Program-made: the position numbers and the translations under genes
The notes under the pieces: generated by a model
Database searches by the model: none
What the model was told of the DNA's origin: nothing
Seen by the model: only the letters and a program-made list of their open reading frames with translations
Part shown: in pieces, positions 2 to 6,600 of the stretch
How the letters are laid out: each line of letters opens with the position of its first letter
How positions within the stretch are numbered: position 1 is the stretch's first letter
Source: Deltaproteobacteria bacterium
GTDB lineage: Bacteria > Myxococcota > Myxococcia > Myxococcales > 40CM-4-68-19
Assembly: GCA_005879315.1 (NCBI GenBank)
Contig: VBLC01000056.1
Span: 1 to 52,986, forward strand
DNA length: 52,986 bases
Direction of reading: 5' to 3'

Positions 2-511
2 CTCGCTCCCAACGACGGCAACATCTGGGCGGCCAATCCGTTCTGCGCCGTACCGTCGGGCTTTCGCGTCCGCGCGGCGGGCAAGAAATATTGGGGCATC
101 TGCATCTGGGATGCTCTGGGGATCGCAGCCGCTCTCGGTGCCGACGCAATCGTCACCACGACGTGCGGCGACTGCGGCGACGTCATGACCCTCGAAGTCC
201 GCGACGGCCGCCTCGCGCGGAGCGAAGGCATCGTCCACTTCGCAATCCCCGCCCACCACTGGTGGGACAACATCGGCTTCACCTGAAGCACCATGCTGCT
301 CTTCCGGGACGAAGAGCACATCGATCGCTGGTGCCAGCCGCGCGATCTCGTGCGCGGCGAAACCATCTCGCCCGAGCAAACCTGGCGGCTCGCGCACGCC
401 TGGTACAAAGACAAGCTGAAGCCGGATTGGCGCCGCCACACGCTGGAGGAAACCGAGGCGCTGCTCCGCTCCCTCGGCCTGACCAGCGCGTTCTGGAACC
501 TGCGCGACTGA
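2..511 (+). CDS. Alkylmercury lyase (MerB)-like protein, 5'-truncated by window edge, candidate selenoprotein with in-frame UGA
   Basis: The reading frame is open from base 2 to the TGA at 509-511 except for one in-frame TGA at 284-286. Both halves read as one protein: an upstream part with GICIWDALG (Cys34, Asp37 of the visible fragment) and a downstream part beginning STMLLFRDEEH. MerB uses the triad Cys96/Asp99/Cys159 to cleave C-Hg bonds. Here the spacing Cys34-Asp37-UGA95 is 3 and 58 residues, against 3 and 60 in MerB, and the UGA falls where the second Cys is expected. A hairpin resembling a bacterial SECIS follows at once (see 293-321). The likeliest reading is that UGA encodes selenocysteine; the alternatives are a nonsense mutation (TGC to TGA) or a sequencing error. 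The N-terminus lies outside the window, so length and start are unknown. Family assignment is from remembered motifs and is fairly sure; whether it acts on mercurials is not shown. Confidence 0.75.
293..321 (+). promoter_or_regulatory. bSECIS-like hairpin downstream of in-frame UGA
   Basis: An 8-bp perfect stem pairs 297-304 (TGCTCTTC) with 311-318 (GAAGAGCA) around a 6-nt loop CGGGAC at 305-310. With C296 bulged, three more pairs form (293-295 with 319-321). The loop begins 18 nt after the UGA (284-286), and G is the second loop base. Published bacterial SECIS rules ask for a loop 16-37 nt after UGA and a G in the first two loop positions, and both are met. Function as a SelB-binding site is inferred. 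Confidence 0.55.
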
Positions 512-2713: not shown

Positions 2714-5096
2714 ATGGCCCGGCCACCCGAGGCGACTCCTTCACCGGGCGCGTGGCTTGGCCGGTACCGCGTCGTCTCGCCTCTGGGCAGAGGAGGGATG
2801 GGCGAGGTCTACCGCGCGCACGATGAGCGGCTTGGCCGCGACGTAGCGGTCAAGGTGCTGCGCTCCGGCTAGCGCGCGAGCCCGGGGCTGCAGAAGCGCT
2901 TCGAGAGCGAGGCCAAGGCGGTGGGAAGCCTCAACCACCCCAACGTCGTCGCCGTGTTCGATGCAGGCGAGGAGAACGGCTGCCCCTATCTCGTCACCGA
3001 GCTCCTCGAAGGAGAAACGCTTGCGGAGCGGCTCCGCAAAGGTGCGTTCGCGCCGGCAGCCGCAGTCGAGGCGGCTCTCGGCATCGGCCGCGCCCTCGAG
3101 GCTGCGCACGCGGTCGGGGTGGTTCACCGCGACCTGAAGCCGGCCAACGTCTTTCTGACAATGGATGGCCGCATCAAGGTCCTCGATTTTGGTCTCGCGA
3201 AGTGGACGAAGGCCGAGGCCGTCTCGCGCGAGAGCACGATGCCGGGCACTCTCCTCGGCACGCCGGGATATATGTCGCCCGAGCAGGCCCGCGGTGAGGC
3301 GGCTGACGCGCGCTTGGATCTCTTCAGCGTGGGCGCGCTGCTCTACGAGATGCTCTGCGGCTCCGCGCCGTTCCGGCGCAGCTCGCCGGTCGAGGACCTG
3401 CACGCCATCCTGCACGAGGATCCGCCTCCGCTGGACGCATCGCACAGAGGCATCCCACGCAATGTCGAAACGGTCGTGCGGTGCTGCCTCGCCAAGAAGC
3501 GCGACGACCGATTCCAGTCCGCGCGCGAGGCGGTGGAGGCGCTCGCGCCGGCCGCAGGAGCATCGAGCGAAGCCCAGGCCGATCGCGCTTCGAAGAACGT
3601 GGAGGGCTCCGTGCCTCTGCCCCTGTTCGCCGAGTTGAACCGCCGGCGCGTTTTCCGCGCGCTCGTCGTCCGGGGCATCGTGGCCTTCGCCGTGCTGCAG
3701 ATCATCGAGCCGGTCATGCATGGGCTGCACTGGCCCGATGCCGTGCTCTCGTACGTGGTCGTCGCGCTCGCTGTCGGGTTCCCAGTCGTCGTCGGGCTGG
3801 CATGGGTTTTCGACGTCAAGGCCGGCCACATCGAGCGGACGGCGCCCGCGCAACCGATACGCGCGCGCCTTTTGCTCGTTCTTGTCGGCATCGGCCTGCT
3901 CGCGGCAGCGCCCGGCCTCTTCTACTATTTCGTGCTGCGCAGCCCGCAGCCTGCTCCGGCCCGCGAGCAGCTCGACTCCATCGCGGTGGTCCCCTTCGTC
4001 AACATGAGCAGCGACAAGGAGAACGAGTACTTCTCCGACGGCGTCACCGAAGAGCTGATCAACGCGCTCGCCAACATCCCGGGCTTGCGCGTCGCCTCGC
4101 GCACATCGGTGTTCGCGGTCAAGGGCAAGGGGCTCGATGCGCGCCAGATTGGCGAGAAGCTCGGCGTGAAGGCCCTGCTCGAAGGCAGCGTGCGCCGCGA
4201 GGGCAACGCCCTCCGCGTGACCGCCCAGCTCATCAACATCGCCGACGACGTGCATCTCTGGTCGCAGAGCTACGACCGGGAGCTGAAGAGCATCTTCGCC
4301 GTCGAGGACGAAATCGCCCGCTCGATCGCGCAGGCGCTGCGGCGCAGGGTGGCCGGCGGCGAGTCAGCGGCGCTGGTGAAGCCCGCCACTTCCAGTCAGG
4401 ACGCGCACGACCTCTATCTGCGCGGGCAATACTTCAAGGAAAGACGCACCCCGGACTCTCTGCGCAAGGCAACCGCCTATTTCGAGCAGGCGATCGAGAA
4501 GGATCCTGACTACGCGCTGGCCTATGTCGGCCTCGCCGATTCGGCGTCGCTCCGGGAGTTGCACGACGACGCTGCGCCCGCCTCGGCGGTACTGCCGAAG
4601 GCGAAACAGGCGGTGACGCACGCTCTCGAGCTCGACCCCGGCCTCGCGGAGGCCCACGTCACACTGGGAATCATCGCAGGGATGGATTACGACTGGGCTG
4701 CCGCGGAGCGAGCTGAGCGCAGGGCGATCGAATTGAGGCCGGAATGTGCGGAAGCACATCACTGGCTCGCATTGACGCTCGCCTTCACCGGCCGCCTGCG
4801 CGAAGCGCGCAGCGAGGCCGAGCAAGCGGTGCGGCTGGATCCCGCGTCGCTGATCCGCAACAGCGTCGTTGGACTCGTGGCGACGACGCGTTGCGCGTGG
4901 TCGAGCAGTTGGAGCTTTCGCCTGCGCCGCGCGGTTTCATCTGGGTCGCGCTCGGCGAAAAGGAGCGCGGGTACGCGCTGCTCAAGAAAGCTTGCGCCGA
5001 ACGGGACTGCGGTCGATCAAGGTCAATCCGATCTACGATTTCATGCGCTCGGACCCTGGATTCAAATCGCCCTTGAAATGCCTCCACTTCGAGTAG
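2714..5096 (+). pseudogene. Ser/Thr protein kinase with TolB-like and TPR domains, disrupted
   Basis: Translated with corrections, this is a Pkn2-type membrane kinase. From the ATG at 2714 come the ATP loop [10 protein letters not shown], the catalytic Lys in VAVKVL, HRDLKPAN, DFGLAKW and GYMSPEQARG. Two transmembrane stretches follow (about 3650-3810 and 3870-3940), then a TolB/CadC-like domain (SIAVVPFVNMSS, WSQSYDREL) and TPR repeats. Three lesions are visible. An in-frame TAG at 2870-2872 falls right after the catalytic Lys region. A frame change, probably with a deletion, lies near 4866-4885. Another frame change lies near 5010; beyond it the true C-terminus (IKVNPIYDFMRSDPGF) is read in a third frame to the stop at 5094-5096. 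A product from 2921 onward would lack the ATP loop. It is most likely dead, since sequencing errors at three sites would be needed otherwise. Confidence 0.75.
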
Positions 5097-5109
5097 CAAC
5101 TCGGACTCG

Positions 5110-6600
5110 CTAGGGTCTCACGGCGGCGCCGAAAATGTCCGGCTCCGGCGAAAGAACGTGGTTGGGATCGTATTTTCTCTTCGCCTCCGAGAAACGCCGC
5201 CAGAGCTGAGGACCGTAATGCTCCTGCCATTCGGCCGGGGAGATGACCATCGAATAGGGAGCGTAGCGCTTGCCGCCAGCGGCAGTCATCTTGGCGAGAA
5301 GTTCCCGGTTGCTGGCCAACAGAGCAGAGAGCGCGGCTTCATCACCCGGTTTCACGCTGCGGAAGAGCCAGATGGCGAACGCTTGCTCCTCGCTCGGCAC
5401 CTTGAAGAGCGGACGCGTGAAGCGACGCGAATTCAAGGGATAGCAACCGAACTGTTCGACGCCCTGGAAAGGCGTCAGACCCGACGCCTCTGGGCTGAGC
5501 GACAGGACGTTGTCCAGATATCTCCTCGTCGCCGAGGCCGGAATCCACATGGTGATGATGGGGCAGGGACGGCCAGGACCCGGAACGCCGCCCCGCGTCT
5601 CCAATTTGAACAGATAATCGCGATAAGTCATGCGCAGAAGCGGGGCGGCAGAGGCGAAGCGCAAGTCCGCTTCGAGGGCCCGGATATTCGGCTCGTCCGG
5701 CGGTGTGAAGAATTTGCCGACCTCGATGACGAATCTCCACGTCCCGCTCTGGTCGCGCAGCATTTGGCCGCGCTGGCCGTCGAAGCGACCGTCACGGGCC
5801 AACCGCAACTGGTCAGCGAGATAAGCATCCAGATCGTTGTAGGTCAGCTCAAGGTGCACGACGTGCGTCGGCGCTGGCATCAGCGGCAGGCCAGCGCGAA
5901 CGATCACACCGCACTGGCCCTGCCCCGCCAGCACCATCTCGAACAACTCGCTCTCGTGCTCGGGCGAACAGGTGACGAGACGGCCATCCCCGGTCACGAC
6001 ATCGAGGTCGGTGACGTTGTCCACCAGCGCGCCGTAGTGGGGAGTCATCAGGCCGATGCCGCCCGCATTCAGCGTGCCGCCCACCGTAATCAGCTTCAGG
6101 CATGTCCCGGGGAACAGACGCGGCGTCAGGCCCTTTGGTAGCGTGGCGTCGGCAACGACGCTCCAGAACGCGCCAGGTTGCGCATCGGCAGATCGGGGTG
6201 TGCGCACGCGGACCGCGTTCAGTGAACGTAAATCAAGCACCACACCTGCTTCGGCTTGCGTCTGTCCATAGCGCGAATGGCCGTTGCCACGGATGGCGAC
6301 CTTCAGTTTGTGCTGGTTGGCGTAACGCACCATGGCCACGATGTCCTGAACGGATCCCGGCCTGAGGACAGCTGCGGGCACGCGATGAAACATGTTGCCT
6401 TGATCCGTGGCGATCGCACGGCGGGACTCCTCATCGAGCAGCAGCTCTCCGTCGAGCTTGGGAATTTCCCGGAACGCGTGGGTTTGCGCTTGCGCCACCG
6501 TCACCCAGGAGCGATTGCGCGGATCGAATCCGACCACTGCAGACGCGCCGGCAATGGCCGCCCACTTGGAAAACTGGCGCCTGGACAAATGAGTACTCAT
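5110..6600 (-). CDS. Tat-exported FAD-binding oxidoreductase (berberine-bridge/cytokinin-dehydrogenase-like)
   Basis: A 496-residue protein starting at the ATG at 6598-6600, chosen because GGAGGAGG lies 5 bases upstream and because a signal follows directly. The N-terminus has a twin-arginine signal SRRQFSKWAAIAGASA, so the folded flavoprotein should be exported. The FAD_binding_4 domain (about 60-235) contains VLRPGSVQDIVAMVRYANQH, RGNGHSRYGQTQ and GGTLNAGGIG, as in cytokinin dehydrogenases and related oxidases. The C-terminal substrate domain ends with the berberine-bridge-type tail KYDPNHVLSPEPDIFG. The substrate is unknown. The frame continues open upstream to 7041, which could create an N-terminally extended protein that would bury the Tat signal. 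It converges with the kinase pseudogene with 13 bp between them. Confidence 0.8.
   Translation of the reverse strand: MSTHLSRRQFSKWAAIAGASAVVGFDPRNRSWVTVAQAQTHAFREIPKLDGELLLDEESRRAIATDQGNMFHRVPAAVLRPGSVQDIVAMVRYANQHKLKVAIRGNGHSRYGQTQAEAGVVLDLRSLNAVRVRTPRSADAQPGAFWSVVADATLPKGLTPRLFPGTCLKLITVGGTLNAGGIGLMTPHYGALVDNVTDLDVVTGDGRLVTCSPEHESELFEMVLAGQGQCGVIVRAGLPLMPAPTHVVHLELTYNDLDAYLADQLRLARDGRFDGQRGQMLRDQSGTWRFVIEVGKFFTPPDEPNIRALEADLRFASAAPLLRMTYRDYLFKLETRGGVPGPGRPCPIITMWIPASATRRYLDNVLSLSPEASGLTPFQGVEQFGCYPLNSRRFTRPLFKVPSEEQAFAIWLFRSVKPGDEAALSALLASNRELLAKMTAAGGKRYAPYSMVISPAEWQEHYGPQLWRRFSEAKRKYDPNHVLSPEPDIFGAAVRP

Follow-up and report, generated by a model that had tools for sequence, protein, structure and literature searches.

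The gene at the beginning of the window (the whole stretch of DNA that was analysed, 52,986 bases) probably encodes a selenoprotein of the MerB superfamily with MerB-like chemistry, acting on an organomercurial or a related organometal, and the probability of this joint reading can be put at roughly 0.75. Its parts are of different strength. Judged from the sequence comparisons given below, the UGA at 284-286 is very probably decoded as selenocysteine (Sec), and the function that we consider most likely is the cleavage of organomercurials, held with clearly lower confidence. We infer all three elements, namely the selenium in the protein, the MerB-like working of the active site and the organomercurial substrate; mercury is suggested by the chemistry of the family. 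A sequence-only reading of the window had already proposed a candidate Sec-containing MerB homologue here, and the conservation of the TGA, the selection acting after it, the SECIS element and the Sec machinery agree with this proposal.

The open frame at 2-511 of the forward strand is interrupted solely by the TGA at 284-286 and is terminated by the TGA at 509-511. When the internal TGA was read through, the product matched PF03243 (MerB) far above the gathering cut-off of 27 bits (Table 1), in line with the earlier description of a single in-frame UGA splitting an alkylmercury-lyase-like frame. In the PF03243 scan of the window's genome this was the only locus detected (E 2.2e-27), and it contained exactly one internal TGA. 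Since the window is a complete contig, the gene lacks its 5' end, a truncation which the sequence-only reading had not noted; approx. 60 N-terminal codons are missing in comparison with the full-length homologue L019, to which the fragment is 81% identical at the protein level. The equivalents of Cys96 and Asp99, claimed to lie upstream of the UGA, are indeed present there. Elsewhere in the window, an in-frame TAG was observed at 2870-2872 (+) within a Ser/Thr protein kinase gene (frame 2750-5113), shortly past the VAVKVL lysine motif, and it may reflect a sequencing error, decay or something else.

Table 1. Features of the Sec-containing MerB-family gene in the window, and the loci carrying two TGA codons in other genomes.
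Feature	Position	Strand	Remarks
3' part of Sec-containing MerB-family gene (predicted)	2..511	+	169 residues and stop; PF03243 105.7 bits
Cys34 of the fragment, equivalent of MerB Cys96	101..103	+	homologue and PDB profile alignments
Asp37 of the fragment, equivalent of MerB Asp99	110..112	+	homologue and PDB profile alignments
Cys55 of the fragment, equivalent of MerB Cys117	164..166	+	homologue and PDB profile alignments
In-frame TGA, putative Sec, MerB Cys159 column	284..286	+	homologue alignment; alignment to 3f2g and 5c17
bSECIS hairpin (putative)	297..318	+	5' arm 297-304, loop CGGGAC 305-310, 3' arm 311-318; pairing, loop codons, covariation
Terminal TGA, real stop	509..511	+	close relatives L019-L021 end there with TGA or TAG
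Double-TGA loci L096, L097, L098, L099, L155			genomes G850, G971, G695, G794, G712

Homologues were collected by a PF03243 search of about 990 genomes (195 of the window's phylum, 395 Gemmatimonadota and 396 Acidobacteriota). Among the aligned homologues of the three phyla the column of Cys159 was occupied by TGA in 77 sequences, and those without TGA had Cys in 30 cases and Trp in one, so that Cys is found in the UGA column of relatives, the check which the sequence-only reading had proposed. Exactly one TGA was present in 74 of the 116 PF03243 hits. The TGA form occurred in 4/195 genomes of the window's phylum, 51/395 of Gemmatimonadota and 19/396 of Acidobacteriota, and TGA stands in the Sec column of every one of the four close relatives of the window gene (70-81% identical, from Gemmatimonadota and Acidobacteriota). 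The Cys96 and Asp99 columns of the homologue alignment are nearly invariant across the Sec clade. In the single Trp sequence (L091, genome G758) the Sec codon is replaced by TGG and the Cys96 residue by Ser, and this sequence may come from a lineage in which a TGA to TGG change abolished catalysis. A Cys clade with Asp99 replaced by Cys, giving C-x-x-C at 96-99, was also observed (L050, L051, L053, L054, L056, L062, L070, L088, L093, L117 and the plasmid loci L292 and L293); several of its members come from genomes without SelA.

The residues of the MerB mechanism are Cys96, Asp99 and Cys159 (PMC4525700, PMC8261052). In order to place the Sec column relative to these, we relied on the PDB profile alignment and not on the homologue alignment or the tree. 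The latter two include a reference MerB row. A profile of 29 relatives matched MerB2 (5c17) with an E value of 5e-23 and MerB (3f2g) with 6e-12, and the Sec column was aligned to Cys159 in 3f2g, which is the C160S mutant of MerB, and to the Cys of MerB2 (5c17). With wild type MerB, in which Cys159 is followed by Cys160, the alignment of the Sec column wavered by one residue. Since the family has a single Cys or Sec at this place, and since of the two MerB cysteines it is Cys159 that is indispensable (PMC8261052), the Sec column was taken to correspond to Cys159. Thus the earlier assignment of the UGA to the second catalytic Cys is upheld by the profile alignment. All 29 members of alignment A3 match PF03243. 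In the window gene the codon standing at the Cys159 position is TGA, in register, which we read as the substitution of one active-site residue within a retained fold. The AlphaFold model was of middling quality (pLDDT 68.7, pTM 0.61, and below 50 in the Sec loop), and with this middling model the 11 best PDB matches of Foldseek were all MerB or MerB2. The N-terminal region appeared winged-helix-like, with weak matches to GntR and similar proteins, as in MerB.

Compared with the known systems, the family of the window protein shares with MerB (plasmid R831b; PDB 1s6l, 3f0o, 3f2f) and MerB2 (5c17) the PF03243 superfamily, the winged-helix-like N-terminal region, the Cys96-Asp99-(Cys/Sec)159 set and the equivalent of Cys117. 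It differs from MerB in having Sec in place of Cys159, in an identity of about 17-20%, and apparently also in the position of the gene, which seems to stand by itself, no mer operon having been seen around it. The window protein stayed far below the cut-offs of the canonical MerB equivalog models (24.6 bits against 193 for NF009710 and 16.7 against 200 for NF033555) and of the SaoL model NF040728 (26.9 bits against 140), which its relatives also match weakly (25.5 bits for L019). SaoL is the one MerB-like selenoprotein in reviews, with the motif CU (PMC9312934, PMC13188914), and it resembles the window protein in being a MerB-like protein with one Sec. In contrast to SaoL, the window family has F-T-U-x-x-x-x-F-R-S-E, where the Sec is not preceded by Cys; the two are set apart by the NCBIfam model and by the two reviews, and no sao genes were noticed nearby. 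By these models and motifs, the window family is neither canonical MerB nor SaoL. No description of this Sec-containing MerB-like family was found in the open-access papers searched. In its decoding the window gene is comparable with that of FdhA, a bacterial bSECIS selenoprotein having an in-frame UGA, a hairpin just downstream and SelB-dependent decoding; FdhA, however, is an oxidoreductase, while the window family has a non-redox organometal lyase fold.

The strongest competing explanation, which we regard as a minority possibility of real weight, accepts the Sec-containing MerB-fold protein but gives it a substrate other than an organomercurial, either another organometal or organometalloid, or a soft metal captured without lyase activity. 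It is consistent with the scores under the MerB equivalog cut-offs, with the replacement of Asp99 by Cys in the sister Cys clade, with the binding of Cu(II) by the D99S variant of MerB (PMC8261052), and with the name given to SaoL, which is 'organometallic lyase' and does not refer to organomercurials (PMC13188914). The solitary position of the gene points in the same direction: around the single-Sec genes (about 30 loci) there was no recurrent neighbour family, and no mer gene was among the 25 commonest of the 120 Pfam families detected in 92 neighbour proteins, the upstream side of the window gene lying beyond the contig end. Pyr_redox_2 was found in 2 of the 92 neighbour proteins. Against this explanation stand the near invariance of Cys96 and Asp99 in the Sec clade and the fact that merB without merA is common anyway, being present in many genomes (PMC8261052).

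Turning to the decoding of the UGA, the 8-bp hairpin reported in the sequence-only reading, with its loop beginning 18 nt after the TGA and a G at loop position 2, was found exactly as described. Taken alone it is modest evidence, since the amino-acid sequence already predisposes to a stem of this kind, an equal or longer one being obtained with 17% of the synonymous recodings of the window peptide. Across the homologues the evidence is strong. The loop started 18 nt after the TGA in all 76 TGA sequences, each of which also has a G within the first two loop positions, as the bSECIS rule demands, and the four loop-proximal pairs were formed in 76, 75, 76 and 76 of the 76, compared with 14, 14, 18 and 18 of the 30 Cys sequences. 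The loop reads CGGTCG in 64/76. The GGUC of the Escherichia coli fdhF loop is contained within this common loop, CGGUCG. The codons of the loop are strongly biased (Arg is CGG in 67/70 cases, compared with 403/1394 in the remainder of these genes, p 6e-31; Ser is TCG in 65/71, compared with 280/753, p 5e-20) and the covariation at pairs 18:31 and 17:32 exceeds that in all 2000 shuffles. As the sequences are related, neither the shuffle figures nor the Fisher p-values can be read as exact probabilities. Pair 18:31 was formed in 71/71 distinct sequences, as C-G, G-C, T-A or T-G, and pair 17:32 exchanges T-A (38) for C-G (18).

The Sec machinery is largely present in the window's genome. SelA was detected with 485.6 bits (cut-off 267.9) and SelB with 300.1 bits (cut-off 242), and a SelD was identified by similarity (G000:C78, L253:11740-12870, minus strand), whose own catalytic site, HGSGU, is written with a TGA. 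Two FdhA genes (molybdopterin oxidoreductases) carry TGA in the motif ARVUHGPTVASL (G000:C5, L210, and G000:C101, L211). No tRNA-Sec was found in this genome above the Rfam cut-off among the 150 of 650 candidates scored, nothing convincing was returned by two sequence patterns, and ARAGORN gave none around selA and selB and on 1.5 of the 4.4 Mb. The assembly is a draft, 97.6% complete in 125 contigs, and we ascribe the missing tRNA to this or to the restricted reach of the search. Thus the expectation of sel genes was borne out for SelA, SelB and SelD, with three TGA-containing selenoprotein genes besides that of the window (the two FdhA and SelD itself), and not for tRNA-Sec. Across the genomes tested, SelA was present in 41/43 of those with the TGA form as against 34/46 of those without it (p 0.008), an association kept to a moderate strength by the wide occurrence of SelA in these phyla. 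In the close Cys clade with VTYTCSTMLVF, four of the five tested genomes had no SelA, which is the expectation if the interchange of Sec and Cys accompanies the loss of the machinery.

The unlocated tRNA-Sec, together with the TGG in the Sec column of L091, could be taken to mean that a variant code or a suppressor tRNA inserts Trp or Cys at the UGA. This is very improbable, since the normal terminator of the gene is itself TGA, the SelA, SelB and SelD proteins are present, TGA occupies the known Sec positions of the FdhA and SelD genes in this genome, the hairpin fits the bSECIS rules, and the TGG copy L091 has lost Cys96 as well. Hardly more credible is a true stop at the UGA, which would leave a truncated protein and a separate small protein from the ATG at 293, where a 72-codon ORF begins: the PF03243 match crosses the TGA ungapped, the truncation would delete the catalytic position, the start codon is not conserved in the diverged homologues, and the Cys forms read straight through. 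The part of the gene 3' of the TGA gave dN/dS values of 0.14-0.31 between the window and its relatives, indicating that it is under purifying selection as protein. The fragmented assembly and the cutting of the gene by the contig end would suit a nonsense mutation or a sequencing error in a decayed merB, but with the TGA, not TGC or TGT, kept in 77 homologues of three phyla, exactly one TGA in most of the hits, a low dN/dS downstream, and constrained loop codons and stem, this is the least probable explanation of all. Column conservation, hairpin pairing, loop codons, dN/dS and covariation led us to reject a pseudogene, a split ORF and a variant code, and decoding of the UGA as Sec is the preferred reading.

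Five genes of Acidobacteriota (Table 1) contain TGA in each of the two columns of the Hg-binding cysteines, Cys96 and Cys159, and keep Asp99. PF03243 was matched by all four members scanned (41.5 bits for L099). A separate hairpin follows each of the two TGA codons; the one after the first TGA is GCCCTT-CGTGC-AAGGGC in most of these genes, and in L155 matched changes (GTCC/GGAC) preserve the pairing. The loop of the double-TGA group is TGGTCA, coding for Trp-Ser in place of Arg-Ser, and the GGTC is kept in spite of this change, which indicates that the RNA and not the peptide is conserved. In genome G794 the double-Sec gene is located directly upstream of selA-selD-selB on the same strand (L171:2746-9245, minus strand), and each of the three products exceeds its cut-off, SelA with 539.5 bits, SelD with 351 and SelB with 284.5. 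SelA was found in four of the five double-TGA genomes and was not found in the fifth. The SelD of G794 beside the double-Sec gene carries an AhpD-like domain at its C-terminus (scoring over the cut-off of TIGR00778), and a second selA lies elsewhere in that genome (C23). A tentative and less likely extension would be a widespread Sec-dependent organometal lyase family whose substrate is not, or not only, mercury, together with a double-Sec lineage working with two selenolates and one Asp.

As regards its descent, the window gene groups in the tree (support 100/99) with L019-L022 of Gemmatimonadota and Acidobacteriota, apart from the members of its own phylum. When L019-L021 and L024-L027 were compared, it was 70-81% identical to the genes of the two other phyla and 31-51% identical to those of its own. 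This cross-phylum grouping points to horizontal transfer, by which the window gene was likely acquired. No relative of the Sec MerB-like gene was found among viral contigs. On plasmids three distant relatives were detected (29-37% identity) and no Sec form, the two relatives which were translated (an unannotated one from Paraburkholderia and one from Sphingomonas) being Cys forms.

The mechanism we propose is as follows. SelB, with the bacterial SECIS hairpin just downstream, would decode the UGA at 284-286 as Sec, which would occupy the place of the catalytic Cys159 alongside the conserved Cys96 and Asp99. The selenolate and the thiolate of Cys96 would capture the organomercurial as in the protonolysis by MerB, Asp99 would protonate the carbon, the hydrocarbon would be released, and Hg(II) would then be handed on.

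The breakdown of methylmercury by MerB is a main biological route of mercury detoxification. A large survey of MerB was filtered for Cys at positions 96, 117 and 159 (PMC8261052), thus a Sec form was excluded by design, or would be annotated as truncated. In that survey of 2020 MerB was recorded in one Gemmatimonadetes genome and in no genome of Acidobacteria (PMC8261052), in contrast to the 51/395 and 19/396 genomes of these phyla in which the TGA form was found here. Dozens of soil and water bacteria share the in-frame TGA arrangement, and gene surveys based on cysteine would miss them. If the enzyme is active, it would provide a natural test of the role of a selenolate in the cleavage of the Hg-C bond, and this would apply with even more force to the double-Sec lineage.
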